From positions 1-35,154 of the IMG/VR virus record IMGVR_UViG_3300034105_001614: a DNA stretch of 35,154 nucleotides; one strand, 5' to 3'. This document shows, one piece after another, positions 20,780 to 35,154 of this stretch; positions within the stretch are counted from its first letter, which is position 1; the number at the start of each line of letters is the position of its first letter. The DNA is from a virus. The notes beneath the pieces are model-generated. The model was not told the DNA's origin. It made no database searches and saw only the letters and a list, made by a program, of their open reading frames with translations. Both the position numbers and the translations under genes were made by a program.

Positions 20780-20799
20780 TACGAGTCATTTCGCATTAG

Positions 20800-21269: not shown

Positions 21270-21271
21270 GT

Positions 21272-21706: not shown

Positions 21707-21742
21707 GGCTCCTCCTCTACCTAGTAAGTACTTCTTATTCTA

Positions 21743-22297: not shown

Positions 22298-22320
22298 GTG
22301 TTCCTTTCCCGAAAGCCCGA

Positions 22321-22343
22321 TCAAAAACCCTTGTAGTTTTTGA
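22321..22343 (-). other. Stem-loop in the Rpf gene leader
   Basis: TCAAAAAC pairs with GTTTTTGA around a seven-base loop, about 25 bases upstream of the Rpf ATG. A second short stem (CCGC/GCGG) lies further upstream in the leader. Together they make a structured 5' leader of about 85 bases. Confidence 0.45.
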
Positions 22344-22389
22344 ACGGGTGGTCCTTCGTATTGGTTTCCGCAGACAAAGCGGTCTTACT

Positions 22390-22418
22390 ACTGTAACCCA
22401 CCGTTTACCTCACTGCAA
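22390..22418 (-). promoter_or_regulatory. Sigma-70-like promoter for the Rpf gene
   Basis: Minus strand TTGCAG, a 17-base spacer, then TACAGT. Unlike the other promoters here it has a recognisable -35 and drives a leadered mRNA of about 85 bases, so the gene may use a different host sigma factor. Confidence 0.4.
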
Positions 22419-22475
22419 ATAAATCATATCGCCCTTTACTAACCATTAGGATTACCAAGGCTTACTAATCCGGTG

Positions 22476-22481
22476 TACAGT
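22476..22481 (+). promoter_or_regulatory. Leaderless promoter TGTACAGT
   Basis: TACAGT with TG just upstream, six bases (GGAGAC), then the ATG at 22488. The six bases also contain GGAG, but too close to the ATG to act as a good SD. Confidence 0.45.
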
Positions 22482-22487
22482 GGAGAC

Positions 22488-22802
22488 ATGATTGAAAACT
22501 GGAATGAAGACAGTGATGGAATTGTAGATGACATCATGGTCATTGCGGTAGCGGCAGACACCGAAACGTGGCTTCCACACCTCGTTCTCGGTATTCCGGT
22601 CGATGAAGAGGAAGAACTCGTCGGAGGAATTGTTCCTATTACGATGACCCCCGAAGAGGCTTACCAAGTAGGGGCGTACCTGATTCAGGCCGCTGCTACG
22701 GTGTCGTCGTTTTATAACGAACTGATCGACAAGAGCATTGAGGAACGCAAGGAGATCATCTCGTTAGAGAGTCACTTCTTGGATTCTTCATACCCTTTCT
22801 GA
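22488..22802 (+). CDS. Acidic hypothetical protein, 104 aa
   Basis: I chose the ATG at 22488, exactly six bases after a -10 box; an upstream GTG at 22473 would place the promoter inside the gene. It begins MIENWNEDSDGIVDDIMVIA and is strongly acidic. The stretch MTPEEAYQVGAYLIQAAATV is a helix. Possibly a host-protein inhibitor or DNA mimic by charge alone; no family is recognised. The end overlaps the convergent gene 22772-23020 by 31 bases. Confidence 0.6.
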   Translation: MIENWNEDSDGIVDDIMVIAVAADTETWLPHLVLGIPVDEEEELVGGIVPITMTPEEAYQVGAYLIQAAATVSSFYNELIDKSIEERKEIISLESHFLDSSYPF

Positions 22803-23020
22803 GCACCGAGATCTGAGACAACATTAAGGATGTAGGGAGTTGCGACAAACGCAGCCTTATCCAAAATCGTGCTGTCGGGTCCTGAAATAGCCTCAACTCC
22901 TACATAGGTAAGAATGGCCTTATTAACAGGCGTAATAGAACTCTTGGTCTTCTCTGACGTTCCACGAACTGTTACTACGGGTGTGAACAGGTCGGTAATG
23001 AACTTCTGGAATTTACTCAT
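22772..23020 (-). CDS. Hypothetical protein near the lysis gene, 82 aa
   Basis: Begins MSKFQKFITDLFTPVVTVRG. The middle is moderately hydrophobic (NKAILTYVGVEAISGP, then KAAFVATPYILNVVSDLG) and the tail is charged. A holin was considered because the endolysin is close, but the hydrophobic runs are short and contain Glu or Asp. A TACGCT box lies six bases before the ATG, consistent with a leaderless start. Confidence 0.5.
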   Translation of the reverse strand: MSKFQKFITDLFTPVVTVRGTSEKTKSSITPVNKAILTYVGVEAISGPDSTILDKAAFVATPYILNVVSDLGAQKGYEESKK

Positions 23021-23026
23021 GCCATT

Positions 23027-23032
23027 AGCGTA
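23027..23032 (-). promoter_or_regulatory. Possible leaderless -10 box, TACGCT
   Basis: TACGCT, six bases (AATGGC), then the ATG at 23020. There is no TG extension, so it is weaker than the others. Confidence 0.3.
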
Positions 23033-23084
23033 AATGCTAACATCTAGCGTGTCAAGTCTTTTGTTCCATATTCTTACCTAAGCA

Positions 23085-23095
23085 TGTGGTAATCT
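23085..23095 (+). promoter_or_regulatory. Leaderless promoter TGTGGTAATCT
   Basis: TGTGG plus TAATCT, six bases (CTATTT), then the ATG at 23102. It is the plus-strand counterpart of the island promoters and probably drives the lysis unit. Confidence 0.55.
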
Positions 23096-23101
23096 CTATT
23101 T

Positions 23102-23320
23102 ATGGGAAAGAGGGCCATAGCCTTCCGAGTGAAGGACACAACTGTTGCAGGCATTGAACTTGCGTGCAGTGAGTGTCCAGTAGTTCTTCAACTTACCCAC
23201 GACACTAACTACCCATTTCCTAAGCACCGATGTGTTGGCAACATCAGGAATTTCGATATTGTTATGGAATTAGATAGTTTGGTCACCCGACAAAGCCGTA
23301 TTGATAAATACTGGCATTAA
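23102..23320 (+). CDS. Small Cys/His protein upstream of the endolysin
   Basis: A 72-aa protein. ACSECPVVLQLTHDTNYPFP followed by KHRCVGN gives Cys-x2-Cys and a later His/Cys pair, a possible small zinc-binding site. The gene is leaderless by promoter geometry and ends 13 bases before the endolysin start, so both are on one transcript. A regulatory or lysis-accessory role is unproven. Confidence 0.6.
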   Translation: MGKRAIAFRVKDTTVAGIELACSECPVVLQLTHDTNYPFPKHRCVGNIRNFDIVMELDSLVTRQSRIDKYWH

Positions 23321-23333
23321 ACATAGGAGAAAA

Positions 23334-24392
23334 ATGGGTTATTACCTTCTTGACAACCCCCCTGCTTCACCCCAGTTCTACCCGTCCCGCAATAACGGTC
23401 TTAGTGGTGGCGTTGTCATTCACACAACCGAAGGTGCTGGTGGGGATACCGCCGCAGAGAATACCGCTGGCTTTATTTCCCGTAGGTCCGATCCGGGCAG
23501 TTACCACATGATCGTTGATACTGATTCCAGTGTCGCCATGATGCCTGACGATCATGTGGCCTTTGGAGTGGCAGCATCGGGATACAATAGCAAGTGCTGG
23601 ATGATCGCCATCGCCGCACGGTCCTCGGACCTTAATCCTGACGATCCACGAACTCAGGCTGAGGTTGACCGTATGGGTGCCGAGATTGTTGGATTTTGGC
23701 AGCGCAATGGCTTTAATGTCGCTGAGGCTTCCCAGTTCATCGGTGAAGACGTGAAGAACCGACCCGGACTTGCACATCATGGTGATGTTCAGCCAGCAGA
23801 TCGTTCAGACGCTTGGAGCCGACGAGAAGATCGTTGGATCTTTGACTCGCTGCTTCTTCAGGCCATTGAGCGCCATAGCGGGTCCACTCCCGCTGTACCT
23901 CCTACACCCACTCAGCCGGTTCCTGTGGCTCCTAACACCGTGTGGCAGGTTGGCTCTACCGGAGACAAGGTACGAGATATTCAGAAGGTCGTTGGAGTTG
24001 CCCAAGACGGCGTGTTTGGTCCTCAGACCGAAGCGGCAGTTCGTCAGTGGCAGGCCAACCTTCAACTCTCAGCAGATGGCGTTTGGGGTCCTCAGACTGA
24101 ACAGGCTACGCATGACTTGTTCGTGTTCCTGTCCAATCTTCAGGCCGTTGCTCCTAGCAATCCATTCTTTAATGCCCTGAACGACGCTCGTAGTCAGGTT
24201 CTTCGGCAGGGGTCTACCGGTGGTTCTGTGAAGATTCTTCAGGTCGGATTGAACGGCAAGGGATACGGACTTGTTGGTGACGGGGTCTTCGGTCCTGCCA
24301 CCTATAACGCTGTTCGTAAGTTCCAGTCAGACAACGGCCTTCAGGTTGACGGTGTCGTCGGCCCTCAGACGTGGGAAGCGTTGCTCTCCTAG
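23334..24392 (+). CDS. Endolysin, amidase plus two peptidoglycan-binding domains
   Basis: A 352-aa protein from the ATG at 23334, chosen for SD AGGAGA. Residues about 22-172 are an amidase_2 (N-acetylmuramoyl-L-alanine amidase) domain, with zinc-ligand candidates H30 (VVIHTTEG) and H148/H149 (LAHHGDVQPADRSD). A Pro-rich linker is at 185-200. Two PG_binding_1 domains follow at about 205-262 and 288-351, each with DGV(F/W/V)GP(Q/A)T. The enzyme cuts host peptidoglycan at lysis. No signal peptide is visible, so export needs a holin, which I could not identify. A terminator follows. Confidence 0.93.
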   Translation: MGYYLLDNPPASPQFYPSRNNGLSGGVVIHTTEGAGGDTAAENTAGFISRRSDPGSYHMIVDTDSSVAMMPDDHVAFGVAASGYNSKCWMIAIAARSSDLNPDDPRTQAEVDRMGAEIVGFWQRNGFNVAEASQFIGEDVKNRPGLAHHGDVQPADRSDAWSRREDRWIFDSLLLQAIERHSGSTPAVPPTPTQPVPVAPNTVWQVGSTGDKVRDIQKVVGVAQDGVFGPQTEAAVRQWQANLQLSADGVWGPQTEQATHDLFVFLSNLQAVAPSNPFFNALNDARSQVLRQGSTGGSVKILQVGLNGKGYGLVGDGVFGPATYNAVRKFQSDNGLQVDGVVGPQTWEALLS

Positions 24393-24565
24393 ATCAGTTT
24401 CATTTCAATAACTGATTCGACCGGAATTTGAAGTTCAACAAAGCCGCTGCTGGAATACTCGGTAACGAGTTGAAGGCAGCGGCTTTTTGCTTCCGTAAGC
24501 CAACCAATGCTGTGGGTTGGATCACCGTTATTATCCCAAAGAACCTCTACGGCTACGTCGTGCAT
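24389..24565 (-). CDS. Small hypothetical protein, 58 aa, convergent with the endolysin
   Basis: Begins MHDVAVEVLWDNNGDPTHSI and ends PVESVIEMKLI. Its ATG overlaps the stop of the metallophosphoesterase gene as TAATG, a typical coupled start here, and its stop overlaps the endolysin stop by four bases. Beta-rich pattern; the function is unknown. The endolysin terminator hairpin lies inside this frame. Confidence 0.6.
   Translation of the reverse strand: MHDVAVEVLWDNNGDPTHSIGWLTEAKSRCLQLVTEYSSSGFVELQIPVESVIEMKLI
24440..24487 (+). terminator. Rho-independent terminator after the endolysin
   Basis: AAAGCCGCTGC at 24440-24450 pairs with GCAGCGGCTTT at 24476-24486, followed by a T-run on the plus strand. 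It ends transcripts from 23102. Confidence 0.75.
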
Positions 24566-25386
24566 TAGAACTTCTTAGCCGTGTACTTCTCTAGTGATAC
24601 GCCCTCGTATTTCCGACACAAATACGACATGGACACGAACATGGGGTCGTAGGCACCATTCTCTACCTCGTGACAGACAATCAGTCCACGCCAGTGGGCG
24701 TTTCCTTGGTATCCCTTATAATCTTCGTCATGGAGGTAAAAAGCCCCAGCGATGAGTCCACAATGCTGATCGCCGTTCGCTAGGAAGCGAGTGCTGTAAT
24801 CAAGCGTCTGCTGGTGACCCATGGTAAATGAATGGCCGATGGTCTTAAGACGGGTAGATGCCACACCGCCTATAGGCTTCCCTGACATAGGATTAGCCCA
24901 ATAGTGGGCATAATGTACCCCATCTAGTTCTAAGGGCTTTAGAAACGGATGTACGACCCACTCGTGGTCCTCATAGTTGAGGTCTGATAGTCCGATAGCG
25001 CCTTCCATCTTCGCATCGCTGTTAATTGCCCTAGTGATGCGATCTTCATGGTTTCCAAGAAGGATGTGCTTCTCAGGAGCGTAGACACCTTTACGCCACT
25101 TCTTCTTAGGCTCGTTGTATCGGTCCATAGCACTATTGAGAATATCGAAGCCTTCATTGGCCGATTCGATATCCTGAATGTACCTCTTGCCCTCATGGCT
25201 CATCTTACCGAAATCGTAAGATGAAAGGCTGTTCATATCCGCATGATCACCAAGATGTACGATCACATCGGGCTTGCGGTCAATGATGTATTCAGCGGCC
25301 CAGTAAAGGTGATCTAGTGGGACACCGGGCTTAACTTGGGTATCAGGAATAACAAGGTGCGTACGAGGAGTGCTCAACAGGCCCAC
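24565..25386 (-). CDS. Calcineurin-like metallophosphoesterase
   Basis: A 273-aa protein. Motifs in order: D15 in PDTQVKPG (the usual DxH has Gln in place of His), GDH(A)D at 46-50, GNHED at 111-115, then THY/AHYW-type and MGHQ histidines. These form the two-metal site of calcineurin-like phosphatases and nucleases. Phage members act on nucleotides, RNA ends or DNA, and the substrate here cannot be told. The start is GTG, 38 bases from the divergent deaminase start. It is coupled by TAATG to the following small gene. Confidence 0.85.
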   Translation of the reverse strand: MGLLSTPRTHLVIPDTQVKPGVPLDHLYWAAEYIIDRKPDVIVHLGDHADMNSLSSYDFGKMSHEGKRYIQDIESANEGFDILNSAMDRYNEPKKKWRKGVYAPEKHILLGNHEDRITRAINSDAKMEGAIGLSDLNYEDHEWVVHPFLKPLELDGVHYAHYWANPMSGKPIGGVASTRLKTIGHSFTMGHQQTLDYSTRFLANGDQHCGLIAGAFYLHDEDYKGYQGNAHWRGLIVCHEVENGAYDPMFVSMSYLCRKYEGVSLEKYTAKKF

Positions 25387-25411
25387 CTATCGATAGAGTT
25401 CTCGGATGCTG

Positions 25412-25417
25412 TAGGGT
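25412..25417 (+). promoter_or_regulatory. Possible leaderless -10 box, TAGGGT
   Basis: TAGGGT lies seven bases before the ATG at 25425, one more than in the other cases. The whole divergent interval is only 38 bases, so both starts must use very short promoters. Confidence 0.3.
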
Positions 25418-25424
25418 ACACGAC

Positions 25425-25886
25425 ATGACCAACTCCGTACATAGCCACGAGAGAAAATGGCTTGAAGCGTGTGACATTCTAGCGCCAATGTTCTCTACTT
25501 GCGCCAAACGTCAGTACTTTTCTGTGGTATTAGCACCTAACAAGAGGGTTGCTGGAGTCGGCTATAACGGAAGCCCTCCCGGTATGGCTCACTGCGTAGA
25601 CGGTGCCTGTCCACGGCTATATGAAGACAGCCCTAGCGGCTCCTCATACGACAACTGCATTTCACAGCATGCCGAGCAGGGAGCGCTCTTGTGGAGCGAC
25701 CCAGCCCTTCGGCAGGGAGGAACTCTCATTGTTAACGGTCCACCCTGCATGGGATGCGCCAAACTCATCGCATCGTCGGGTGTCCACAGGCTTGTGCATT
25801 ATGTGGACAAGTCTTACGAATCTTGGCCTTTAGTGTATAATTTACTAAGCCAAGCGGGCGTGACCGTTATTGGAGTAGATAGATGA
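25425..25886 (+). CDS. dCMP deaminase
   Basis: A 153-aa protein of the cytidine/deoxycytidylate deaminase family. The substrate loop is GVGYNGSPPG, the zinc ligand and catalytic Glu are in QHAEQGALL, and the two zinc Cys are in PPCMGCAKL. It converts dCMP to dUMP to feed dTTP synthesis for phage replication. The length is normal. It overlaps the next gene by four bases (ATGA). Confidence 0.9.
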   Translation: MTNSVHSHERKWLEACDILAPMFSTCAKRQYFSVVLAPNKRVAGVGYNGSPPGMAHCVDGACPRLYEDSPSGSSYDNCISQHAEQGALLWSDPALRQGGTLIVNGPPCMGCAKLIASSGVHRLVHYVDKSYESWPLVYNLLSQAGVTVIGVDR

Positions 25887-26083
25887 GCAAGGTACTTGCA
25901 TCATTCGTAAGTTACAGTCGTCGTTTAGAAGCCTCTGCCGCTCAGTTGGCAGCGGCTCTACGGGCCGTTCAAATGCGCCACCCATGTAACTGCGTAGACG
26001 GATATGACCGCCACACAGCCTCTATGGCGCTTATGGAATACGCAGAACTACTAGAAGAGATAAACACCAATCAAAAAGATTGA
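25883..26083 (+). CDS. Small hypothetical protein, 66 aa
   Basis: Begins MSKVLASFVSYSRRLEASAA. A long amphipathic helix (QLAAALRAVQMRHPC) is followed by CNCVDGYDRHTASMALMEYA. CNC could bind a metal. It is coupled by ATGA to the deaminase and ends two bases before the convergent island genes. The function is unknown. Confidence 0.65.
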   Translation: MSKVLASFVSYSRRLEASAAQLAAALRAVQMRHPCNCVDGYDRHTASMALMEYAELLEEINTNQKD

Positions 26084-26085
26084 TG

Positions 26086-26361
26086 TTACTTTTCTGATTC
26101 TTCTTCGGTCCCGTTGAGGTATTCAGCACGCTCGTGGTTCCACATGTCAGAGGTGTTTTCGTTCTCTAGACGGTGGACGGTACCCCACTGGTTCTCCATA
26201 GGCATGTCATCAGCCATATGGATGGAACCCTCGTTTTCAGGGTGCCCAACCATGAACGACGACTGAGGCTCAAGAGCGCCCAGTACACGGTCCATAAGGT
26301 GGTTGGCAGCCGTCCAAGAGGCATTTCCAAGTCCTTGGTAGAAGTTAGCGCTGCGACTCAC
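26086..26361 (-). CDS. Hypothetical accessory-island protein, 91 aa
   Basis: Begins MSRSANFYQGLGNASWTAAN and ends in an acidic stretch. The Asn/Met-rich middle (NEGSIHMADDMPMENQWGTV) looks poorly structured. It overlaps the upstream gene as ATGA. It is the last gene of the island; no family is recognised. Confidence 0.65.
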   Translation of the reverse strand: MSRSANFYQGLGNASWTAANHLMDRVLGALEPQSSFMVGHPENEGSIHMADDMPMENQWGTVHRLENENTSDMWNHERAEYLNGTEEESEK

Positions 26362-26630
26362 ATCAAGCCCCGTCCGTACATAGCGTCGTTGTATCCATGG
26401 TCTCCGTAACGCTCTTCCATCGGTTCAAACTCATCGTGGGAAGGTGAGTACGGTGAATACTCGTCGTTACGGTCTGCACGACCCTCATCCATGCGGGGGT
26501 CCATATGCATGGATTCGCCATAGATATTGGATGCGAAACCAATATTATCAAGATCTTCAAGACGAGCGGCGTGATGCTCACGGGTCACCTTGCGGTGCTC
26601 GTCGTGTTCTGAGTGGTGTCCTCTAGCCAT
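26358..26630 (-). CDS. His-rich hypothetical protein, 90 aa
   Basis: Begins MARGHHSEHDEHRKVTREHH, a His-rich amphipathic helix like those in two other island proteins (33396-33605 and 33920-34306). The rest is acidic, Asp/Tyr/Met-rich and likely disordered. It is leaderless by promoter position (TATTAT six bases before the ATG). It may bind metal or partner proteins. Confidence 0.65.
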   Translation of the reverse strand: MARGHHSEHDEHRKVTREHHAARLEDLDNIGFASNIYGESMHMDPRMDEGRADRNDEYSPYSPSHDEFEPMEERYGDHGYNDAMYGRGLM

Positions 26631-26636
26631 GTATAG

Positions 26637-26647
26637 ATAATACCACA
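26637..26647 (-). promoter_or_regulatory. Leaderless promoter TGTGGTATTAT
   Basis: TGTGG plus TATTAT, six bases (CTATAC), then the ATG at 26630. Confidence 0.6.
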
Positions 26648-26667
26648 GGGGGCTATATCGATAGCAC

Positions 26668-26694
26668 TATCAAACCATATGGGATAGTTTGATA
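26668..26694 (-). terminator. Hairpin after the 26709-26912 gene
   Basis: TATCAAAC pairs with GTTTGATA around an 11-base loop containing CATATGGG. No U-run follows, so termination is uncertain. It separates two transcription units. Confidence 0.4.
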
Positions 26695-26708
26695 AATGAT
26701 CTATTTAC

Positions 26709-26912
26709 TCAGTATTCCTCTGGGTGACGACGGTCAAGTTCCGTGTCATTGGAAAACAACTGCATCTGGCCGTTTTCACGCCGAAGTCGTCGTTCTGAGC
26801 GGGATGCGTTGTACCTAGCGTTGTACCCGGTTGCCTTGGAAAACTCAGCAAGGCGGTTGGTACGGGCTACTAGATTCTCAGGGCTGTTCTTGTCGTCGTT
26901 CTTCATCATCAT
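26709..26912 (-). CDS. Small basic protein with QMQLF peptide, 67 aa
   Basis: Begins MMMKNDDKNSPENLVARTNR. It is basic (SRSERRLRRENG) and then carries GQMQLFSND at residues 48-56, close to the sliding-clamp-binding consensus QLxLF. The SD is AAGGAAG. It overlaps the preceding 45-aa frame by 35 bases. The function is unknown. Confidence 0.6.
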   Translation of the reverse strand: MMMKNDDKNSPENLVARTNRLAEFSKATGYNARYNASRSERRLRRENGQMQLFSNDTELDRRHPEEY

Positions 26913-27015
26913 TTTTCTTCCTTGGGTTCTCTTGACCCATATCGGATTTCTCTAAGCGCCAACGAAGGTCTTCATCAAGTACATACTCTTCACGAATCTT
27001 CTTTTGCTCGCTCAT
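26878..27015 (-). CDS. Small charged hypothetical protein, 45 aa
   Basis: Begins MSEQKKIREEYVLDEDLRWR and ends DDEERRQEQP. Its ATG overlaps the stop of the ART-like gene as TAATG. It is highly charged and helical. The long overlap with the next gene makes it less certain than its neighbours. Confidence 0.45.
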   Translation of the reverse strand: MSEQKKIREEYVLDEDLRWRLEKSDMGQENPRKKNDDEERRQEQP

Positions 27016-27851
27016 TACTTACCCTTACGTCGGCCCTTTTTGGGTTCGAATACAAGATAACGGTGTTGAGGTGAGGTCTTTACTTCGGTGCTGTGATCGA
27101 CAGTACTAATTCGGTCAGTATAGGTGTCATCGAATACATGGGCGACTTCTGCGTCGGGGGGCAGGGAAGGTCGATCAACGGTCATTTTGGTTGGACCCAA
27201 GTGCTCCATACCGGGCAGAGGAAACTGTACGTTATTGGTATTGTTTCGCTCAGATCGCTTGTATAGAGGTTTACCCACATGGGCTACCAATTCGTGTGTC
27301 TGAGCCTTCTCACGCCAATGTGAGGGTGCCTTAGGGTCCGACATGACGTGTTCGCTCCACGTCATTAGATTTTCGGGAGCGGCCCGGAAAGACACTGACC
27401 CATTGTCCTCCATCTCATTCAAATAAGGAACGTGCTCGCCACGGATGTTGGCGTTATACGCCGAATCGGGGAGCAGCATGTCAGGTAAATTATAGTGATC
27501 ATTGGCATGGTCATCACGCCATGTGGTTTGATCTTCCTGATGTTCGTTAAATGAGGGGTTTAGAGCAGAACTACCGGTCATTCGGTAGGGATATGCCCTA
27601 TCACGGCGACGGCGACTGTAACGGGTCGCTTCATCAGCAGAGCGTCTTGAACCGACGTGGAATCCGCTGTAGTCCCCATACATACCAATGTTGGCAGTTT
27701 GGTGAGGCGAACCCTTCTTTAGAGTTGAGTGCCATACAGTCGCATCGCTTTGCGCCCAATTGGCAGGGTCATAGTGATCAGTTTCCGGCTCTTTGGCAGG
27801 ACCGGGATCAAACAACTGAAGTTGTTCGCTGAGATTATGTTCCTGACCCAT
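27015..27851 (-). CDS. Possible ADP-ribosyltransferase-fold protein
   Basis: A 278-aa protein. EQLQLFDPG at residues 9-17 is a clamp-motif-like peptide. Residues 39-80 read VWHSTLKKG, then GFHVGSRRSADEATRY, an H-S-T plus FHxGS pattern seen in ART-like phage proteins. YLNEMEDNGSVSFRAAPENL near 143-162 could supply the later ART strands. No clear catalytic EXE is visible. If active, it would attach ADP-ribose to a host target; this is inference from the fold. It is coupled by TGATG to the upstream metallopeptidase. Confidence 0.5.
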   Translation of the reverse strand: MGQEHNLSEQLQLFDPGPAKEPETDHYDPANWAQSDATVWHSTLKKGSPHQTANIGMYGDYSGFHVGSRRSADEATRYSRRRRDRAYPYRMTGSSALNPSFNEHQEDQTTWRDDHANDHYNLPDMLLPDSAYNANIRGEHVPYLNEMEDNGSVSFRAAPENLMTWSEHVMSDPKAPSHWREKAQTHELVAHVGKPLYKRSERNNTNNVQFPLPGMEHLGPTKMTVDRPSLPPDAEVAHVFDDTYTDRISTVDHSTEVKTSPQHRYLVFEPKKGRRKGK

Positions 27852-29494
27852 CAGTCTTCCATACCCGGAAGTTGGGGTTGGGTCCAGCCACCGTTCTGTT
27901 CACGACTACGGTTACGGCGGGCATCGATATAGGCAGAACGAGCCTGCTTACCAACGTCGTATAGACCCTGTTCCCTAAGATGCTTCATAAGGCTAGGAGT
28001 GGTAGTAACCATATGACCAAGGGCCATAGTGTTTACAGAGTCAGCATGCTCTTTATTTTCGTAATCTCGTACCTGATAGCGTGAGTCGTTGAGGGGCATA
28101 CCTAGGGATTTAGAAAGTTCCTCACGAGAAGGATATTGGTCACGACCATTGTCCCCAGTACGAGCAGCAATCCGTGATGCAGTGTATAGGGCTTTGTGGG
28201 TTTTATTCTTCCACTGAGCGTGGTCTACCCCGTATCCCTTTTTCATAGATCTAGTAGGATCGTTAGGATCGTGTAGAACGTCCTCATACATGTCACCCAT
28301 CCCGCCATGGGGAGTGGTGGAGTATCGGTCACGTCTACCGTCAGCAAGACCTTCTTCTAACGGGTCTGCAAAGCCATATCTTTCTATATTCTTTGTAAAG
28401 CGCTTTCTATGAGAGTAACGATCATTTACCATAGATTCATCCCGCTGATGACCTATCTCATGTACTAAAGTACCTTGATCGATATGGGGGGTTTTTGTGT
28501 ACTTGTCCTTCTCAGGGATCGTTACTTCCTCAACCGATTCCGGTTCGAAACGTGAATGCATCTTTGACGTACTAGCAGCATCCTTGGTGTAACTGTATCC
28601 CTTTGTAAAATCAAAGGTATCACCAGCATGAACCTTATTTGAAGACTTTCCTTTGCCCGGAAACAGGTTGGGAACGAAACCAAGACCTCGCAAGTTCTCA
28701 ACATCGCCTTCAGCCTTTTTAACAGCATCGCTGTTCTCTAGTACTTCCCCTGTTCTAGAGTGCTGCCAGCGAATATTGGCCTTAGAAGGAACCCCATATT
28801 GTCCATGTGAGCGTGTGCCGTCTTCTTTGGTGTGATAACCGTATTTCTTAACAGTCCCCTCAGTATGACTAAGAAGACCTTCTGAGGCATCCTCTTGATC
28901 CCTATTGATGTTCTTGTCGTACCAATCCCAAAACTTTGGGTTAGCAATGGGACGATCAGAAGGAGTGGTTTTCAGTCCCTTACTCTCAGGGATTATTTCC
29001 CATTTACCCCTTTTCTCCTTACCGATCATAATTTTATCGCTGTAATCTTCAGCGAAACCACCACCACGATCACGACGAGGATTCAAATAAGCGCTTACCT
29101 TAGTGTTTTCAATTTCTCTAATGGGGGTTTCAGAATTAACTAGACTGTTTCTAAGCAGTTCAGCATCTGACCTCGCCATATTGTCAGAAATCTTGACATT
29201 AGAACCTTGTTTAACACGGCTTTTATAAGCGTCAATATCAGTAAGACCAAGAGCCACATTGGCCGCTGTTTCCCTACGCTCTAACGGTACAAGCGGATCG
29301 TCTTTACGACCAGTACCGGTTGAGGGATGAAAGAGAATACCCTGATGACCCGACAATTCATCATCAGGGGCATTGGTCTTAGTAGTAGGACTTACACGAG
29401 GAACGCCGCTAACCCGTTCACGAGTCCATGACTTGGTTTCTCCTGATTCAGGATCTTCCCAATATGTATCTTCGAACTGTTTGCCTAAAGCCAT
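27851..29494 (-). CDS. HEIGH zinc metallopeptidase-like protein
   Basis: A 547-aa protein. HEIGH at residues 345-349 (GTLVHEIGHQRDES) is the HExxH zinc site. E380/E381 with D385 in FADPLEEGLADG gives the third ligand region of a gluzincin. The N-terminal 330 residues are charged, with no recognised domain. The C-terminus ends TQPQLPGMED. The start is leaderless. Metallopeptidases in phages can cut host proteins or process virion proteins; the target is unknown. No separate prohead protease is seen in this window, so a maturation role is possible but unsupported. Confidence 0.7.
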   Translation of the reverse strand: MALGKQFEDTYWEDPESGETKSWTRERVSGVPRVSPTTKTNAPDDELSGHQGILFHPSTGTGRKDDPLVPLERRETAANVALGLTDIDAYKSRVKQGSNVKISDNMARSDAELLRNSLVNSETPIREIENTKVSAYLNPRRDRGGGFAEDYSDKIMIGKEKRGKWEIIPESKGLKTTPSDRPIANPKFWDWYDKNINRDQEDASEGLLSHTEGTVKKYGYHTKEDGTRSHGQYGVPSKANIRWQHSRTGEVLENSDAVKKAEGDVENLRGLGFVPNLFPGKGKSSNKVHAGDTFDFTKGYSYTKDAASTSKMHSRFEPESVEEVTIPEKDKYTKTPHIDQGTLVHEIGHQRDESMVNDRYSHRKRFTKNIERYGFADPLEEGLADGRRDRYSTTPHGGMGDMYEDVLHDPNDPTRSMKKGYGVDHAQWKNKTHKALYTASRIAARTGDNGRDQYPSREELSKSLGMPLNDSRYQVRDYENKEHADSVNTMALGHMVTTTPSLMKHLREQGLYDVGKQARSAYIDARRNRSREQNGGWTQPQLPGMED

Positions 29495-29500
29495 ACGTCA

Positions 29501-29511
29501 ATTATGCCATA
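29501..29511 (-). promoter_or_regulatory. Leaderless promoter TATGGCATAAT
   Basis: TATGG plus CATAAT, six bases (TGACGT), then the ATG at 29494. Confidence 0.65.
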
Positions 29512-29543
29512 GCAGCAGGCAGGCCGAAGAAGCGAAGTTAAAA

Positions 29544-29583
29544 ACCGAAAAAAATGAAGAATAAGCCCTGATATGCTTTATTC
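29544..29583 (-). terminator. Rho-independent terminator after 29578-30105
   Basis: GAATAAAGC pairs with GCTTATTC (one bulge) at 29559-29583 and is followed on the minus strand by TTCATTTTTTTC. The stem overlaps the stop codon of the gene above, making that gene a single unit. Confidence 0.65.
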
Positions 29584-30105
29584 GTAAGATCCACGAGCAT
29601 TTCTGTCGTAATCTTCCTGATTCGGCTTATAGGTCTCATCGACCCATTCCTTCGCAGAAGACTTGATGTAGTCAGGATTGTGACGTACAGCACCCGGAAT
29701 GTAGATTGCGTCAAGAGGAGCCTTCTGACCACGAGCATTCGTCTTGTAAGCCGTAGCGTAGAAGTAGTTTGTGTCAGGATCAGCCTCGGAGTGAGTACTG
29801 GTCTCATGTGGGATCGGGTACTCAACGTGTACCGAAGGAGTCACCTGATGATGTAGGACCGGGTAGTCCTCTTCATCGAACTTGATGTTCTCACCCTGAA
29901 ACTTGTCATGTGCGTGTCCCGTAGCAGCAAGACCGATAGAAGCCTTGTAGGAACCCGGACCACCCATCATTTCTTCCATAGAGTCCCAGAGATGTCCACC
30001 AAGTGCTTCGCCAGCAATCTTGTCTTGTTCTTGCTTAGACATGATTCCTTCTAGGGAATGTTCGGGGTTACCATGTCCTGCATCGAAGTGATCTCGTCTA
30101 CTCAT
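29578..30105 (-). CDS. FDAGH-tagged hypothetical protein, 175 aa
   Basis: Begins MSRRDHFDAGHGNPEHSLEG, the N-terminal tag shared with genes ending at 32817 and 33907. After the tag come a helix (GEALGGHLWDSMEEMMGG) and a beta-rich part (VTPSVHVEYPIPHE, then NYFYATAYKT). It is a single-gene unit with its own leaderless promoter and terminator. The function is unknown. Confidence 0.75.
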   Translation of the reverse strand: MSRRDHFDAGHGNPEHSLEGIMSKQEQDKIAGEALGGHLWDSMEEMMGGPGSYKASIGLAATGHAHDKFQGENIKFDEEDYPVLHHQVTPSVHVEYPIPHETSTHSEADPDTNYFYATAYKTNARGQKAPLDAIYIPGAVRHNPDYIKSSAKEWVDETYKPNQEDYDRNARGSYE

Positions 30106-30111
30106 ATACCT

Positions 30112-30122
30112 AGTATCTCACA
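30112..30122 (-). promoter_or_regulatory. Leaderless promoter TGTGAGATACT
   Basis: TGTGA plus GATACT, six bases (AGGTAT), then the ATG at 30105. Confidence 0.6.
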
Positions 30123-30176
30123 ATGACTGCTAAACGCTCAGACCCTAGGCCCGCCCTTAGTGCTCAAGAGGGAGAG

Positions 30177-30545
30177 TTAGGGTATCCATTCAACAGGAAC
30201 GAATTTCTTAGGGTCTTGGAACGCTTGAGAGAACACTCGGTGATGACCGTCGATAAGCACCTTAGATGGCATCCCCTTATGTAGCGGAGATCCATACATA
30301 TCTTTGCTATGCACAAGCGATACTGGCTGACGGATACCGTCCTCTTGAACGCTCTTATAGAGAGATCGCTCAGTACCATCGTCAGCATGCTCTTTAGTGG
30401 ATTCACTTAACTTCTGAGCATGAAACTCGTGGAAGGGTTGGAACTCTTCCATATCGCCGTGAACTGTAAGATCAGGGTTCGCTAGATCTCCTGCTCGCTC
30501 AAACATTGTGAGTTGATCGGGATTGATGACGTGTTTAGCACCCAT
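30177..30545 (-). CDS. ParB/Srx-like protein with QLTMF peptide
   Basis: A 122-aa protein from the ATG at 30545, chosen because it overlaps the upstream stop as TAATG. DQLTMFERAGDL at residues 10-21 resembles a sliding-clamp-binding peptide. Residues 60-120 follow the ParB N-terminal/sulfiredoxin fold: LYKSVQEDGIRQPVSLV, then VLIDGHHRVFSQAF with DGHHR at 99-103, then VPVEW. ParB-like domains bind CTP or act as nucleases or kinases. It is a paralogue of 32926-33396. The role is unknown. Confidence 0.72.
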   Translation of the reverse strand: MGAKHVINPDQLTMFERAGDLANPDLTVHGDMEEFQPFHEFHAQKLSESTKEHADDGTERSLYKSVQEDGIRQPVSLVHSKDMYGSPLHKGMPSKVLIDGHHRVFSQAFQDPKKFVPVEWIP

Positions 30546-30877
30546 TACTTCTTCCTTCTCGGTAAAGCGCCGCCTACTGACCTCGCCCAAGCGTCCCCTT
30601 CGTCAGTTCGGTCTGCACTGTGCTTAGGTTTAGGTACCCGTGCGTTCTCTGCCGCCAATTGGTGCCCGTGTTCCCACATCGCCGTCGCAACACCCTTTCG
30701 GGCATATTGTGGACTGACATCGATATTTCTAACTGACTTGGATGTCCACAGCATGTGTCCAGCGTATTTATCCCCAAGGCGAGCAGTGATTCTATGTTGA
30801 TACTTTGAGGCACCCGTATCTTGGGTGTCATACTCAATATCAAACTGATCTCCGTGGAGATTATCCGCTGCTGACAT
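30545..30877 (-). CDS. GNAT-type acetyltransferase-like protein
   Basis: A 110-aa protein. NIDVSPQYARKGVATAMWEH at residues 51-70 is the acetyl-CoA-binding motif A of GNAT enzymes (RKGVA as R/QxxGxA). A conserved-looking end follows: KHSADRTDEGDAWARSVGG. The N-terminus MSAADN is shared with the cysteine protease-like gene at 34746. It would transfer an acetyl group to a protein or small molecule; the target is unknown. The start is leaderless, and it is coupled to the ParB-like gene. Confidence 0.75.
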   Translation of the reverse strand: MSAADNLHGDQFDIEYDTQDTGASKYQHRITARLGDKYAGHMLWTSKSVRNIDVSPQYARKGVATAMWEHGHQLAAENARVPKPKHSADRTDEGDAWARSVGGALPRRKK

Positions 30878-30883
30878 GTATCA

Positions 30884-30894
30884 ATTATGCCACA
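30884..30894 (-). promoter_or_regulatory. Leaderless promoter TGTGGCATAAT
   Basis: TGTGG plus CATAAT, six bases (TGATAC), then the ATG at 30877. This is the best match to the island consensus. Confidence 0.7.
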
Positions 30895-30900
30895 CATGCA

Positions 30901-30928
30901 AAAGACCGGCCCCTAGGAGCCGGTCTTG
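30901..30928 (-). terminator. Rho-independent terminator after 30952-31389
   Basis: AAGACCGGC pairs with GCCGGTCTT around a short CCTAGG-containing loop, followed by TTTTGC on the minus strand. It isolates the GNAT unit from the genes upstream. Confidence 0.75.
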
Positions 30929-30951
30929 AGTAAAAGAGCGATACTTAACTA

Positions 30952-31389
30952 TCAGTCGGGAATCCAACCCTTACGGCGAGCCACGCTGGAAGCCCACTCG
31001 TCAGTAGTCTGATACGACGGCGAAGTGCTTGCATGGTAAGAAGAAATCTTACTAGGCGCTTGCGAGGAAGTGCTTTCAGATGATTTCTTCTTAGGAGTCT
31101 CCTTTGTAGGTGAATCCTTCTCAGGCGGGTTATTCCAAGTGGCTGCCTGTGTCTGTGCACTAGGCAACTTAGGTTGGTTAGGATTAGGCCGCTGTGGAAG
31201 GCTACCGGGGTCCTTAGCACCACGTCCGGGCCGCTTTGGAAGATCACCATAGGAACCCACAGAAGTACGGGTAGGAGGGCCGGGAGGGCGACCCATACCA
31301 CCAGCAGACGGAACTAGACCTGAGGCATCGCCTCGGGCCATCGTGCTGCTATCTCCACTACGGGGGCGAAAACGTCCTAGAATACTCAT
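30952..31389 (-). CDS. Pro/Ser-rich disordered protein, 145 aa
   Basis: Nearly the whole chain is low-complexity Pro, Ser, Gly, Thr and Lys (GRPPGPPTRTSVGSYGDL, then DSPTKETPKKKSSESTSS). Only the end, TTDEWASSVARRKGWIPD, looks structured; it resembles the DEGDAWARSV segment of the GNAT-like protein. The SD is AAGGAT. It may be a flexible linker or tail protein, or a carrier for the C-terminal motif. The function is unknown. Confidence 0.65.
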   Translation of the reverse strand: MSILGRFRPRSGDSSTMARGDASGLVPSAGGMGRPPGPPTRTSVGSYGDLPKRPGRGAKDPGSLPQRPNPNQPKLPSAQTQAATWNNPPEKDSPTKETPKKKSSESTSSQAPSKISSYHASTSPSYQTTDEWASSVARRKGWIPD

Positions 31390-31413
31390 AACTAATCCTT
31401 AAATCCTTGTATG

Positions 31414-31950
31414 TTAGTAATCAGGTGTCTTCCAATTACCGTTTGGATTCATCCAATCGGGAGTATCAGATTCACCATAACGAGTGGGGGGCGGTACATC
31501 CCAATCAAGATTATCAGAGCCACCATGACGAGGGGGAGGCGGTGCATCCCAATTGGGTACTGCTTCGTGTGAACCCGAACCGGGAATGTTTGCATCCCAA
31601 TCAAATGTGGAACTATTCGAACCCGAACCGGGGGGAGGGGGAAGATGTCCGAACTGACCCGGACTTACCGCTCCACGCCCGCCACGGACATCAGAGGCAA
31701 TACCTCTAAGAGTGTTCGCTGCACGAAACTTGTTGCGAATTCCGGGAGTAGCCATACCAATAGCGGCACCAATAACACCTTCACGGTGTGCTGGGTTCTG
31801 AGCGATATCTCGTGCAATACGACCCGCTGAGGTCTGACCTGCTGCTGTTTGACCGAAAGTGTCCGCAGCAGCGTGAATAGCCCCGCCTACAGCATCTGAG
31901 TTGGCAATCTTCTTAGCGACGGACCCGCCGACCTTCTTCATAATACCCAT
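31414..31950 (-). CDS. Gly/Ala-rich protein with DWD-proline repeats
   Basis: A 178-aa protein. Residues 1-85 are Gly/Ala-rich helices (KKVGGSVAKKIANSDAVGGA, then GVIGAAIGMATPGI) that could touch membranes. Residues 105-178 repeat a short unit: FDWDANIP, NWDAPPPPRHGGSD, LDWDVPPPTRYGESD, then PDWMNPNGNW. The order membrane-like helix plus repeat tail resembles internal or ejected proteins, but this is inference. It is coupled by TAATG to the gene upstream. Confidence 0.6.
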   Translation of the reverse strand: MGIMKKVGGSVAKKIANSDAVGGAIHAAADTFGQTAAGQTSAGRIARDIAQNPAHREGVIGAAIGMATPGIRNKFRAANTLRGIASDVRGGRGAVSPGQFGHLPPPPGSGSNSSTFDWDANIPGSGSHEAVPNWDAPPPPRHGGSDNLDWDVPPPTRYGESDTPDWMNPNGNWKTPDY

Positions 31951-32153
31951 TAGTAGCCTGACTCAGCGTCACGGTCCAACTGAGCGCCTGTCTTAGTGGA
32001 CCTCTTGGGTGCTTTCTTTCCTTGAAAACTCCACATCTTGTCATTTATAAAATCAGACATATGATCAGCGATATCGTCTAGTTTGGCCTGCCTATGCGTT
32101 TCCCGATCAACCTTGCGCCCGGGGTGAGATCCGGTGTCTTGTCCGTGTGCCAT
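31950..32153 (-). CDS. Small hydrophilic protein, 67 aa
   Basis: Begins MAHGQDTGSHPGRKVDRETH. A helix (KLDDIADHMSDFINDKMWSF) is followed by a basic tail. It has a real SD (AAGAAGGAA) and an upstream promoter, so it is leadered, unlike its neighbours. The function is unknown. Confidence 0.65.
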   Translation of the reverse strand: MAHGQDTGSHPGRKVDRETHRQAKLDDIADHMSDFINDKMWSFQGKKAPKRSTKTGAQLDRDAESGY

Positions 32154-32192
32154 GAGTATTCCTTCTTAAGTCGTGTGCCTAGTGGCTATACA

Positions 32193-32387
32193 TCAATTAT
32201 GCCACAGGAACGCCGTATTACAGGCTTCCTCAGCGTCGCCATTGACTGCTGCGACCATTACACCGTTTTTATTTAGCAAATGCCAAGCAGCGTCGTCGTT
32301 AAAATCACTGACAACAGACCACTTACCGTCGTTCGACTCATAACGGGTGTCGGAGATCTTCGAAAACGTCAGTTCTGTGTCAGGCAT
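32193..32387 (-). CDS. Small hypothetical protein, 64 aa
   Basis: I chose the ATG at 32387, one base after the preceding stop; upstream starts overlap that gene. Begins MPDTELTFSKISDTRYESND and has beta hairpins (KWSVVSDFNDDAAWHLLNKN). The last codons (LWHN stop) contain the next promoter's -10 box. The function is unknown. Confidence 0.6.
   Translation of the reverse strand: MPDTELTFSKISDTRYESNDGKWSVVSDFNDDAAWHLLNKNGVMVAAVNGDAEEACNTAFLWHN
32196..32206 (-). promoter_or_regulatory. Promoter TGTGGCATAAT, followed by ATA instead of ATG
   Basis: The same TGTGGCATAATTGATGT block as at other starts, but the codon at the predicted transcript start is ATA. The gene it serves (32153) has its own SD 35-40 bases downstream. 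The box overlaps the stop of 32193-32387. Confidence 0.6.
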
Positions 32388-32388
32388 G

Positions 32389-32817
32389 TTAGAGCGCTTC
32401 CCAAGGGTACTTGTTGATCTTCTTACGAGTTTCCCGATCCATGTCACCCTTGATCACGGTAATGTCCTTATCAACGGGAAAATCATGTCCATGTGAAGAA
32501 TGAACATTAACTTTATCGCTATCTTTTTTTTGAACTTGGTTCATATAAGAGTGAATACGACCACAGGCGCACAGGAAGGCATGATCCTTCGTTAGATCCT
32601 TAGCCTTTACAGACTCGGTATCAAATTCAATGCCGCTACCTGTAGAAAATCGGTTTCCCGTGTCGGCAGTCTTATAACGAATGCCTGAAGGAGGCTGAGA
32701 AACCTCATCAAGACCCATTTTTCCGCTCACAAGAGGGTTAATGGGCTTTTCAGGGGCCGGAGTGGTGTTGTGATGCTCCATGCCGTGTCCAGCATCGAAG
32801 TTTTCTGTGCGTGCCAT
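32389..32817 (-). CDS. FDAGH-tagged protein with CACG motif, 142 aa
   Basis: Begins MARTENFDAGHGMEHHNTTP, one of three shared N-terminal tags. The middle is flexible. CACGRIHSYM near residue 85 may bind metal. The end is basic/helical (MDRETRKKINKYPWEAL). It is leaderless by promoter geometry. The function is unknown. Confidence 0.7.
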   Translation of the reverse strand: MARTENFDAGHGMEHHNTTPAPEKPINPLVSGKMGLDEVSQPPSGIRYKTADTGNRFSTGSGIEFDTESVKAKDLTKDHAFLCACGRIHSYMNQVQKKDSDKVNVHSSHGHDFPVDKDITVIKGDMDRETRKKINKYPWEAL

Positions 32818-32823
32818 ACGCCA

Positions 32824-32832
32824 ATTATGACA
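32824..32832 (-). promoter_or_regulatory. Leaderless promoter TGTCATAAT
   Basis: TGT plus CATAAT, six bases (TGGCGT), then the ATG at 32817. Confidence 0.6.
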
Positions 32833-32843
32833 CGAAATACTCT

Positions 32844-32880
32844 AAAAAACGCCATTTGGTCAAAAATCTAAGATTTTGAC
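32844..32880 (-). terminator. Probable terminator after 32926-33396
   Basis: GTCAAAATCT pairs with AGATTTTTGAC (one bulge), and TTTTTT follows nine bases after the stem on the minus strand. It lies in a 108-base gap that otherwise holds only the next promoter. Confidence 0.45.
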
Positions 32881-32925
32881 GTGAAATTAGTCACATATGA
32901 TCCATTTTAACCATATGGGCAAGTA

Positions 32926-33396
32926 TCAGTCTTTTCGACGTGCAGCCTTTTTAGCGGGCCTTGACGGCTTGGGTCTAGGAATATCAGCCAACGTATAGTG
33001 GTCTTCGCCATTAACGACATTGGCAAGATGTTCGTCGTCTGTGTAGTGCATAACTGGCACTAGCATTTCAGGATCAATATCGTTTGCCGAGACAATCCTA
33101 TGATGACCATTAGCAATTGTAGGATTACTACGCCCGCTCTCCCACATCACCCTAATAGGAGTTTTTACACCCTCTTTAGCGATTTCTTTATGGAGAGTAC
33201 CTCCATGAACATCCGTAGGTTGTTCTTTACTCTCGCCTAATTTACGATCCCATAAGTCATTATTGGTCTCTTTTTTCGTAAAATACGAGTCTTCTGTATA
33301 TCTACGATCACCGGGAAGCGGTCGGGCAGAGATAAGGTCCTTTGCAGGAACAAACATAGCCAATTGTTCGGAACGTAAAGCGTCTTTAGCAGCCAT
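32926..33396 (-). CDS. ParB/Srx-like protein with QLAMF peptide
   Basis: A 156-aa protein. EQLAMFVPAKDL at residues 10-21 aligns position for position with the peptide in 30177-30545. The ParB/Srx-like part is LHKEIAKEGVKTPIRVMW, then TIANGHHRIVSAND with NGHHR at 96-100, then VPVMHY. A basic tail follows (PKPSRPAKKAARRKD). Its start overlaps the upstream stop as TGATG. It may bind DNA through the tail and the host sliding clamp through the peptide; both are inferences. Confidence 0.72.
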   Translation of the reverse strand: MAAKDALRSEQLAMFVPAKDLISARPLPGDRRYTEDSYFTKKETNNDLWDRKLGESKEQPTDVHGGTLHKEIAKEGVKTPIRVMWESGRSNPTIANGHHRIVSANDIDPEMLVPVMHYTDDEHLANVVNGEDHYTLADIPRPKPSRPAKKAARRKD

Positions 33397-33605
33397 CAGA
33401 CCTGCGGGGGTCGAAGAGCATCCATAGCGTCAAAATGCTCTTGTGCCTTCCAATAGTTCTTCCGAACCATCTCCATAGACCGGCCAACATCAGGATGATC
33501 GGCACCAAAAAGTGCCTTTAGTTCCTTGTTGCGCTTCAGATGATGATCAGTAATAGCCTGATGCTCCCACGCCTTAGCGTGATGGTAATCGTAGTCGTGA
33601 GCCAT
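33396..33605 (-). CDS. His-rich helical protein, 69 aa
   Basis: The ATG at 33605 overlaps the preceding stop as TGATG. Begins MAHDYDYHHAKAWEHQAITD and is helical throughout, with HH pairs every 10-12 residues, like 33920-34306. It may bind metal or form a small helical bundle. It is coupled on both sides. Confidence 0.65.
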   Translation of the reverse strand: MAHDYDYHHAKAWEHQAITDHHLKRNKELKALFGADHPDVGRSMEMVRKNYWKAQEHFDAMDALRPPQV

Positions 33606-33907
33606 CAGTCTTGACCCTCGTTCTTTTTGTCGATGTGCCTGTTCCAAACATGCATTGACGCTGCACGACGAGTGGAGTGATACTGACCTCCACCCTTCCA
33701 CGCCCCGTATGAACCCTCAGGAGTGTCGTGGTTACGTTTGATGTAGCCGATCTTGTCGTTACCGACGTGTACGGCTAGTTCGTCGGTAACAGGGATTTCT
33801 TCCCCATCATGCTGCACATAGGTGTTCGGTTTGTAACGAAACCGACCCGGAGTAGTGTTGTGTTCAGGCATATTATGGCCTGCGTCAAAATGCTCTGTTC
33901 GTGACAT
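33605..33907 (-). CDS. FDAGH-tagged protein, 100 aa
   Basis: Begins MSRTEHFDAGHNMPEHNTTP, the clearest form of the shared tag. The rest is beta-rich (VQHDGEEIPVTDELAVHVGN, then KIGYIKRN) and ends in a charged helix. It has its own leaderless promoter and leads the unit with the His-rich and ParB-like genes. The function is unknown. Confidence 0.75.
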   Translation of the reverse strand: MSRTEHFDAGHNMPEHNTTPGRFRYKPNTYVQHDGEEIPVTDELAVHVGNDKIGYIKRNHDTPEGSYGAWKGGGQYHSTRRAASMHVWNRHIDKKNEGQD

Positions 33908-33913
33908 CCCTCA

Positions 33914-33924
33914 GTTATCTCACA
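33914..33924 (-). promoter_or_regulatory. Leaderless promoter TGTGAGATAAC
   Basis: TGTGA plus GATAAC, six bases (TGAGGG), then the ATG at 33907. The TGA inside TGTGA is also the stop codon of the upstream gene. Confidence 0.6.
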
Positions 33925-34306
33925 TTCCAAAGGGGAAACTACGAATATCAGGCTGCTGGAGACTACTCATGTCGTCATCTGCCGTAAGTCGGTCGTAGTT
34001 TGCCGCAAGGTGAGGAGGTAGCGGCTTGTTGTCTTCTGCACCGCTCCACAAAATATCCGCACGTTCTTGGTGGTGACGCATCGCACGCATGTGATCGTCA
34101 CGTTTACCAGCCAACGAATCGTGGATGGCAATTTCACCTGACTGCATAGGAAACCTAGGCATTTCCTGATTCTTCCCCGTATCAAAGTATTTAGGACCAC
34201 GGGACTGATACCGAGACAGAAGTTCCTGTCGCTTACCCTCGTATTCCGCAGCAAGGTTTTGGTGGTGTTCAACCAAACGGGAATGGTGATCGTAGTAATT
34301 AGCCAT
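33920..34306 (-). CDS. His-rich helical protein, 128 aa
   Basis: I chose the ATG at 34306, six bases after GATAAT. Begins MANYYDHHSRLVEHHQNLAA. A helix (HHxxLVEHHxxLAAEYEGKR) and a second one (KRDDHMRAMRHHQERAD) carry HH pairs. It is paralogous in style to 33396-33605 and 26358-26630. The C-terminus is unstructured. The function is unknown. Confidence 0.65.
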   Translation of the reverse strand: MANYYDHHSRLVEHHQNLAAEYEGKRQELLSRYQSRGPKYFDTGKNQEMPRFPMQSGEIAIHDSLAGKRDDHMRAMRHHQERADILWSGAEDNKPLPPHLAANYDRLTADDDMSSLQQPDIRSFPFGM

Positions 34307-34312
34307 AATCCT

Positions 34313-34337
34313 ATTATCGCACAATTACGCAAATTTT
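34313..34337 (-). promoter_or_regulatory. Leaderless promoter TGTGCGATAAT with AAATTTGCGTA block
   Basis: GATAAT, six bases, then the ATG at 34306. Seven bases upstream of the box lies AAAATTTGCGTA (34326-34337), and a run of CCCCCTTTTTC precedes it. The same arrangement is found at 34753-34777. Confidence 0.6.
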
Positions 34338-34350
34338 CAGAAAAAGGGGG

Positions 34351-34746
34351 CTATCTGTTTATAGGACCTTTGTGGTCTTCGTCCCAGTAGGGCGTAACGT
34401 CGTAGTTTCGATCCCAACGCTTCGAATAATCATCTACATGTTCTACCAACGGAAATTCGGAAGTAGGATCGAACTGCCTATATGTCCAGTCCACTACATG
34501 GTCGTCCACCACTGGAACATGATGAGACATGTGCTCAGAAGGAACTTTTTGCCATTCCGGGTGGACACTACTTGTATCGAACTTTGCACCAGCAAACTGT
34601 AGGTGTTTGCCACCCGCAACGCTTCTGAAGTCTTCAGAAGCCACTTCGCATGACCCTCCCGCACCCTCACATGTATGCCACCCCGCACCCTCTGCGTGGG
34701 GTGCGAACCGCTTGATGTGGTTACTGAGATGGTCTGCTGCGGACAT
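34351..34746 (-). CDS. Papain-like cysteine protease-like protein
   Basis: A 131-aa protein. A candidate triad is C33 (GGSCEVASEDF), H75/H76 (EHMSHHVPVV) and D86 (DHVVDWTYRQFDP). This Cys-His-Asp order with a DxTxRQF strand matches papain/transglutaminase-like domains found in toxins and phage proteins. It could cleave, deamidate or crosslink a host protein. The start is leaderless, and the N-terminus MSAADH resembles that of the GNAT-like protein. It is the first gene of the leftward island. Catalytic activity is not shown by sequence alone. Confidence 0.65.
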   Translation of the reverse strand: MSAADHLSNHIKRFAPHAEGAGWHTCEGAGGSCEVASEDFRSVAGGKHLQFAGAKFDTSSVHPEWQKVPSEHMSHHVPVVDDHVVDWTYRQFDPTSEFPLVEHVDDYSKRWDRNYDVTPYWDEDHKGPINR

Positions 34747-34752
34747 CCCTCA

Positions 34753-34777
34753 ATTATCTCACGCATACGCAAATTTT
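34753..34777 (-). promoter_or_regulatory. Leaderless promoter TGAGATAAT with AAATTTGCGTA block
   Basis: GATAAT, six bases (TGAGGG), then the ATG at 34746. AAAATTTGCGTA (34766-34777) lies seven bases upstream of the box, exactly as at 34313-34337. Confidence 0.6.
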
Positions 34778-34846
34778 AGAAAAGGGGGGGCGGCGACTGA
34801 GCACTTTCATGGCCTATGCCCCAGCGCTCACCACTACTTGGCACTT

Positions 34847-34884
34847 CCCCCATGCCCCATTTCCCCCAAAATTCTAAGTCCCCC
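34847..34884 (-). other. G-run cluster, possible G-quadruplex
   Basis: On the minus strand, runs of 5, 5, 4 and 5 G occur in 38 bases with loops of 12, 4 and 3. The pattern fits a long-loop quadruplex. It may simply reflect the base skew of this block. Confidence 0.45.
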
Positions 34885-34991
34885 TCCACTACTCCACATG
34901 CCCTATAGCCCATCGACCACATGTGTTCCCTACGCCCGGAGACCGTGTGCGGCGAACTAAAGGGGTGGGGGTTATCGGAGTGGACGTGCAA

Positions 34992-35063
34992 AAAACCCTT
35001 ATTTTATATGACTTTTTTGAGGGTGCGTGATCGAGGGGGCGCAGAAAACCCTTATTTTATATG
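34992..35063. repeat. Two exact 19-bp direct repeats, 53 bp apart
   Basis: AAAACCCTTATTTTATATG occurs at 34992-35010 and 35045-35063. On the minus strand each reads CATATAAAATAAGGGTTTT, with an AT-rich TATAAAATA core. The 53-base spacing is about five helical turns. Likely regulator or promoter sites. Confidence 0.75.
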
Positions 35064-35154
35064 GTTTATTTGCATGTGCATGACGTGCGGCGTTATGCCG
35101 AGTGATGAGCACGAGCACGGTGCCGAGCACGAGCGCTCAATAAGTCAATGAAAT

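Follow-up and report, generated by a model that had tools for sequence, protein, structure and literature searches.

The window analyzed here is an entire virus record of 35,154 bp. Its terminase is nearest to those of Streptomyces phages (47–49% identity to BRock, GiJojo, and others), so the record probably represents part of an actinophage-like virus which, judged from its kin, would fall into a class of ∼110 kb. Two exact copies of a 19-mer, CATATAAAATAAGGGTTTT, lie on the minus strand, 53 bp apart from start to start (Table 1), in a block that is non-coding, in agreement with the inspected ORF list; repeats and non-coding status had both been noted in a first-pass annotation. No further copy was found at up to three mismatches across the 35,154 bases; 0.01 matches would be expected at this stringency, and two matches were reached in none of 100 shuffles. 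When the dyad within the repeat (see below) was searched at three mismatches, 2 of 100 shuffles of the window also reached two matches (mean 0.08). The repeat exceeds the 19 bp originally given. The unit comprises ∼33 bp, and the two units of the related contig L004 are 85% identical across 39 nt. The copy A unit is identical in L004 and in a second relative, L001; the intervening DNA is less conserved, and in copy B of L001, GGG is changed to CGC.

Table 1. Positions of the repeats and of the surrounding block in the window.
Feature	Position	Strand	Remarks
Copy A, 33-bp unit	34988..35020	−	19-mer 34992–35010; 22-bp dyad 34993–35014, two mismatches to AAGCCTTANNNNNTAAGGGTTT
Copy B, 33-bp unit	35041..35073	−	19-mer 35045–35063; dyad 35046–35067, two mismatches
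Possible left half of a degenerate further member, severed by the contig end (AATAAGTCAATGAAAT)	35139..35154	+	By eye, weak
Conserved non-coding block with dyads	34775..35154		Counterpart in L004 extends to ∼7260

An exact scan of IMG/VR returned four contigs (L001 to L004), among which L001 and L004 are close kin spanning the whole block. What had been taken for a right end is the end of the contig, as both relatives carry the block on for ∼500 bp, with one degenerate and one inverted copy in the continuation. Their complete block thus holds two tandem minus-strand copies 53 bp apart, a degenerate minus-strand copy, and an inverted plus-strand copy located 380–391 bp from the first. Beyond AATAAGTCAATGAAAT, L004 reads on as AAAGGCTTTTCTG and L001 differs (by eye, weak). 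Three contigs of this virus group stop within the block at differing points (the window at 35154, L076 at position 1, and L082 at its end, right beside the inverted copy). The first 300 positions of L076 contain an iteron-like array around CATATCGACATG, with direct and inverted copies and spacings that include 35 and 53 bp. Tracts of the form ACGCAAATTTT(C)AGAAAAGGGG are repeated at ∼34327 and ∼34766 of the window, just upstream of leftward gene starts, and are found in L001 and L004 too. Past the block lies a small rightward gene (L004:7268–7453; L001 ∼1481–1801) with a variable N-terminus, which ends in a zinc-finger-like motif, CPWCxGTGTYSG...GPCMVC. A contig that shares its end-gene helicase with L004 at 100% identity, G055, encodes a DnaB-type helicase, a Toprim primase, PolA, and RecA.

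Of 53 terminase-kin records, 50 further ones were scanned with the 19-mer at up to three mismatches, many of them short and not necessarily extending to the block, and one, G012, matched with two copies. In this contig (terminase 91% identical), the element occupies the homologous site, adjoins an iteron-like array, and is a perfect dyad, AAGCCTTATAAAATAAGGGTTT, but its orientation is flipped. Because of this flip, the element is, judged from its sequence, a dyad of approximately AAASCCTTAT-NNN-ATAAGGSTTT and not an oriented promoter. A dyad search at up to three mismatches matched 3 of 17 kin records, as did the reversed control (G014 twice, G043, and G046); only G012 and G041 had sites with at most one mismatch, G007 had a single three-mismatch site, and G018, G046, and BRock had none at up to three. 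In G041 (107 kb; best terminase segment 71% identical), two dyads with at most one mismatch and a different center lie 82 bp apart, with a third, weaker one between them (by eye).

The same-face spacing had been taken in the first-pass annotation to suggest a cooperative regulator or a pair of phage-specific promoters. Repeated protein sites that face the same side of the helix are still tenable, and tandem dyads exist elsewhere too, but the promoters found no support. That the copies are phage-specific promoters, or host promoters with only a −10 element, firing outward from the block appears very improbable. The repeats do contain TATAAAAT-like cores, and in L004 the tandem pair as well as the inverted copy would read outward, as would their counterparts in L001. 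The known late and T7-type phage promoters used for comparison also resemble the element in that they are exact 19–23-bp repeats, AT-rich and then GGG. However, no conserved −35 was seen by eye, the second L001 copy lacks GGG, and the element, unlike those promoters, is a dyad and flips in G012. Nor is its orientation to flanking genes fixed, as would be typical of T7-type promoters: 57 scored sites comprised 28 ++, 15 −−, 9 −+, and 5 +− arrangements. Neither a T7-type RNA polymerase (PF00940; the T7 control was positive) nor sigma region 4 (PF04545) was found among 22 records, of which many, including the window and many kin, are fragments. Finally, phages and plasmids with no relation to this virus carry the element as well, as detailed in the following.

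A tighter motif derived from the element was found in other phages as well (L002/L003 and L085–L099). With 19 stretches matching compared with 13 for the reversed motif (17 versus 7 unique), the motif count alone is weak; among the motif loci, the set inspected for this feature, several had additional copies nearby. Copies spread through coding regions had been proposed as a sign against a regulatory role, but none of the 17 unique phage copies lay in an ORF of ≥100 aa, compared with 5 of 7 for the reversed motif. The sites in these phages pointed to a dyad pattern, AAGCCTTA-N5-TAAGGGTTT, which matched at least 120 IMG/VR stretches, compared with 13 for the reversed pattern. After removal of identical contexts, 113 unique ones remained among the dyad matches listed, versus 8 for the reversed pattern. 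The search pattern fixes 17 positions, which are conserved by construction, and bounds the tolerance that can be observed; two unfixed positions are conserved as well, one being T at 79 and the other A at 68 of the 91 non-redundant sites among the matches listed, and the central three vary. Only 19 of the 113 dyads among the matches listed (13 under a stricter ORF rule) were inside an ORF of ≥100 aa, versus 12 of 15 unique control sites pooled from both reversed controls (p = 1.6e-6). In sequence terms, the repeats of the window are members of this widespread dyad.

These sites are often iterated. Near selected dyads in other phages, further ones occurred in tandem at 34, 37, 40, 41, 45, and 48 bp, and within 600 bp, 53 additional copies were counted versus 8.3 expected from the rate far away (both strand readings counted per site). 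Iteron-like 10-mer repeats were present within 250 bp upstream of 30% and downstream of 33% of 93 sites drawn among the dyad matches listed, compared with 7% of 470 background windows. In an unrelated phage (L072, 12300–12760), dense GGGGTCATTG and AATGACCC repeats adjoin the dyads.

The dyad was also sought in isolated phages, plasmids, and chromosomes. Outside annotated genes, perfect or imperfect versions of the element were found in Vibrio phages 1.197.A, H188, pYD38-B, and JA-1, Pseudomonas phages PaMx42 and PAK_P1, Xanthomonas phage DoCa1, Burkholderia phage FLC5, Stenotrophomonas phage C121, and Bordetella phage PBb001. Single BLAST matches in isolates and plasmids were mostly weak (E 0.08 to 10), the stronger ones being Pandoraea (1e-3), Vibrio phage 1.197.A (6e-3), and seven Bacillus records (2e-2, within a gene). 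In one BLAST set of 22 phage records, 10 matches were outside annotated genes and 12 under genes; in a second set of 45, which includes many near-identical Pseudomonas phages, 40 were outside, 1 was under a gene, and 4 were in unannotated records. Oligonucleotide searches with the window's own form matched one record and, in another search, 32 weak ones. Of the 57 matching plasmid records, 29 were from Spiroplasma, which may reflect AT-richness. A replication or primase gene was located within ∼2.1 kb of the dyad in 7 of 11 plasmid regions, and a replication gene was absent from the other 4. In Pandoraea pPO70-1, the dyad match (E 1e-3) precedes trfA by ∼240 bp; RepM is encoded ∼0.8–2.1 kb from it in three Acinetobacter plasmids, and a replication protein near it in a Salmonella plasmid. 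By eye, a Vibrio plasmid has three dyads amid iteron-like repeats beside RepB, and pSN0729-62 has iterons and then a dyad, with a nearby protein annotated as DNA primase. A chromosomal motif was rejected: among 398 genomes sampled within a single phylum, one had the exact dyad (reversed control, 0), and none of 5 others did. In 26 genome contigs, the tighter motif occurred once each and in 16 within ORFs; from the single copies and this fraction, these are read as chance occurrences. E. coli genomes gave a single chance-level match (E 6), on a plasmid.

No gene family accompanies the dyad consistently. In an all-versus-all BLASTP comparison of 1576 ORFs at 121 loci, even the largest family was confined to 9 of them, and 359 ORFs at the first motif-bearing loci shared no family beyond close kin. 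A single shared phage binding protein was thus discarded as a candidate (largest family, 9/121 loci), as was Prim-Pol as a common partner (1 of 28 records). A Pfam scan of 85 of the 140 proteins of ≥230 aa within 4 kb of dyads, performed on dyad loci alone, identified DUF927 (6), HTH_56 (6), DUF5906 (4), D5_N (3), Zn_ribbon_DnaG (2), REP_ORF2-G2P (2), and one each of PrimPol, VapE, GPA, and Rep3; portal (4) and terminase (4) proteins are neighbors as well. These results bear on the reading of the tandem dyads as an operator, at which a dimeric transcription regulator would control divergent gene blocks. The dyad symmetry, the same-face spacing of 53 bp, and the location upstream of leftward genes would all fit, and sites between divergent genes do exist (9 of the 57 scored). 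We nevertheless consider an operator unlikely, given that no common regulator gene is found near the sites, that gene orientation and distance vary among them, and that phages unrelated to one another and plasmids from several phyla carry the element too.

Because of the iteron-like repeats, the nearby copies, the replication neighbors, the lack of a shared family, and the mixed gene orientation, an origin element is favored. The best-supported reading, that the repeats belong to a phage replication origin as its iterated dyads, has, in our estimation, about an even chance of being correct. Sequence, dyad structure, iteration, conservation in kin, and spread across unrelated replicons are established; the origin role, the recognizing protein, and the mechanism are what we infer from them. 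GC skew gave a mixed picture. In G001, the largest skew step of 448 positions, at 26.7 kb, is at the block and coincides with a GC-content boundary (∼47 to 62%). On the corresponding stretch L070 (G001 20000–35000), a sharp GC step is visible at ∼7500, from ∼47–50% left of the block to ∼62–65% right of it; the high-GC stretch to the right extends for ∼14 kb before returning to ∼51%. Across element-bearing contigs, the skew step exceeded background at 2 kb (37 contigs, p = 0.002) and 3 kb (25 contigs, p = 0.007) but was not significant at 1 kb (62 contigs, p = 0.22). The skew of G041 contradicts the origin reading, running opposite to it: the step at its dyads ranks 405–438 of 503 positions at 3 kb and 407–436 of 483 at 5 kb.

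Among known systems, iteron-type theta origins (for instance those of TrfA, Rep_3, and RepA_N plasmids and of phage satellites) are among the closest in kind; they, too, have short, repeated, part-palindromic non-coding sites near an initiator gene, and in two plasmids the dyads lie in or adjoin iteron-like arrays. A paper on PLE replication describes the iterons of RepA_N as semi-palindromic direct repeats (PMC7145576). Whereas iterons are specific to one initiator, the dyad is common to replicons with unrelated initiators. Iteron origins carry several repeats of a single initiator-binding site. Here the dyads, which might be such sites, are repeated; separate iteron-like repeats accompany them in G012 but are not above background once dyads are masked in L004 and L001 (9 and 4 repeated 10-mers versus means of 8.4 and 9.2 in other windows of the same contigs).

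Single-strand initiation sites, such as ssiA and ssiB of RSF1010 and the G-sites, are hairpin-forming origin elements; the element may share with them the capacity to form hairpins and the occurrence as inverted copies, and presumably differs from them in sequence. That a primase or primosome protein here recognizes the element as folded single-stranded DNA is an improbable reading. A DNA hairpin was predicted with z ∼−4 for a consensus-like oligonucleotide of our own making and for the G012 copy (−4.1), and with z −2.35 for the minus strand of copy A, and primase or helicase genes are among some neighbors. Unlike ssi-type hairpins, however, several window-type copies fold poorly, no better or little better than shuffled sequences: z is ∼−1.2 for copy B on either strand, −1.2 for the plus strand of copy A, and −0.1 for the inverted L004 copy. 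The unselected pair 8/12 showed weak covariation (Watson–Crick pairs 0.74 versus 0.67 in shuffled data, p = 0.012, 91 sites). With strong hairpins for the consensus and G012, weak ones for most window-type copies, and weak covariation, the form that is read may be a protein-bound duplex or a folded hairpin. Rfam, applied to L004 6300–7400 only, gave one chance-level match (E 0.95), and of the features of an intrinsic terminator, the stem has few G–C pairs and the consensus three Ts (by eye).

Returning to the origin reading, the repeats would be tandem members of a 22–23-bp dyad marking where replication origins lie in many phages and plasmids, those of the window having a degenerate left arm. 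The full block, as represented by L004 with two good tandem copies, one degenerate, and one good inverted copy, lies between leftward genes and the side that carries the helicase. The dyad would be recognized by a dimeric DNA-binding protein or by a replication protein reading the folded hairpin. As no neighboring gene family is widely shared, recognition would probably fall to a protein encoded by the host, the likeliest case, or to the DNA fold itself. The reader would aid melting or priming of the origin, alongside replicon-specific iterons and initiators. That one 23-bp dyad serves as a shared, host-read origin element in phages and plasmids that are unrelated and span several bacterial phyla, with the window holding an iterated and drifting version, is a more tentative proposal, which we hold to be possible but doubtful. 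No published description of the dyad was found by string and phrase searches, mainly within the openly accessible literature, and such a shared element is likewise without description there. If the proposal is true, a short sequence would flag the start of replication in many uncultured phages and plasmids, and unrelated mobile replicons would all rely on a host factor, or on a fold of the DNA, that is conserved.
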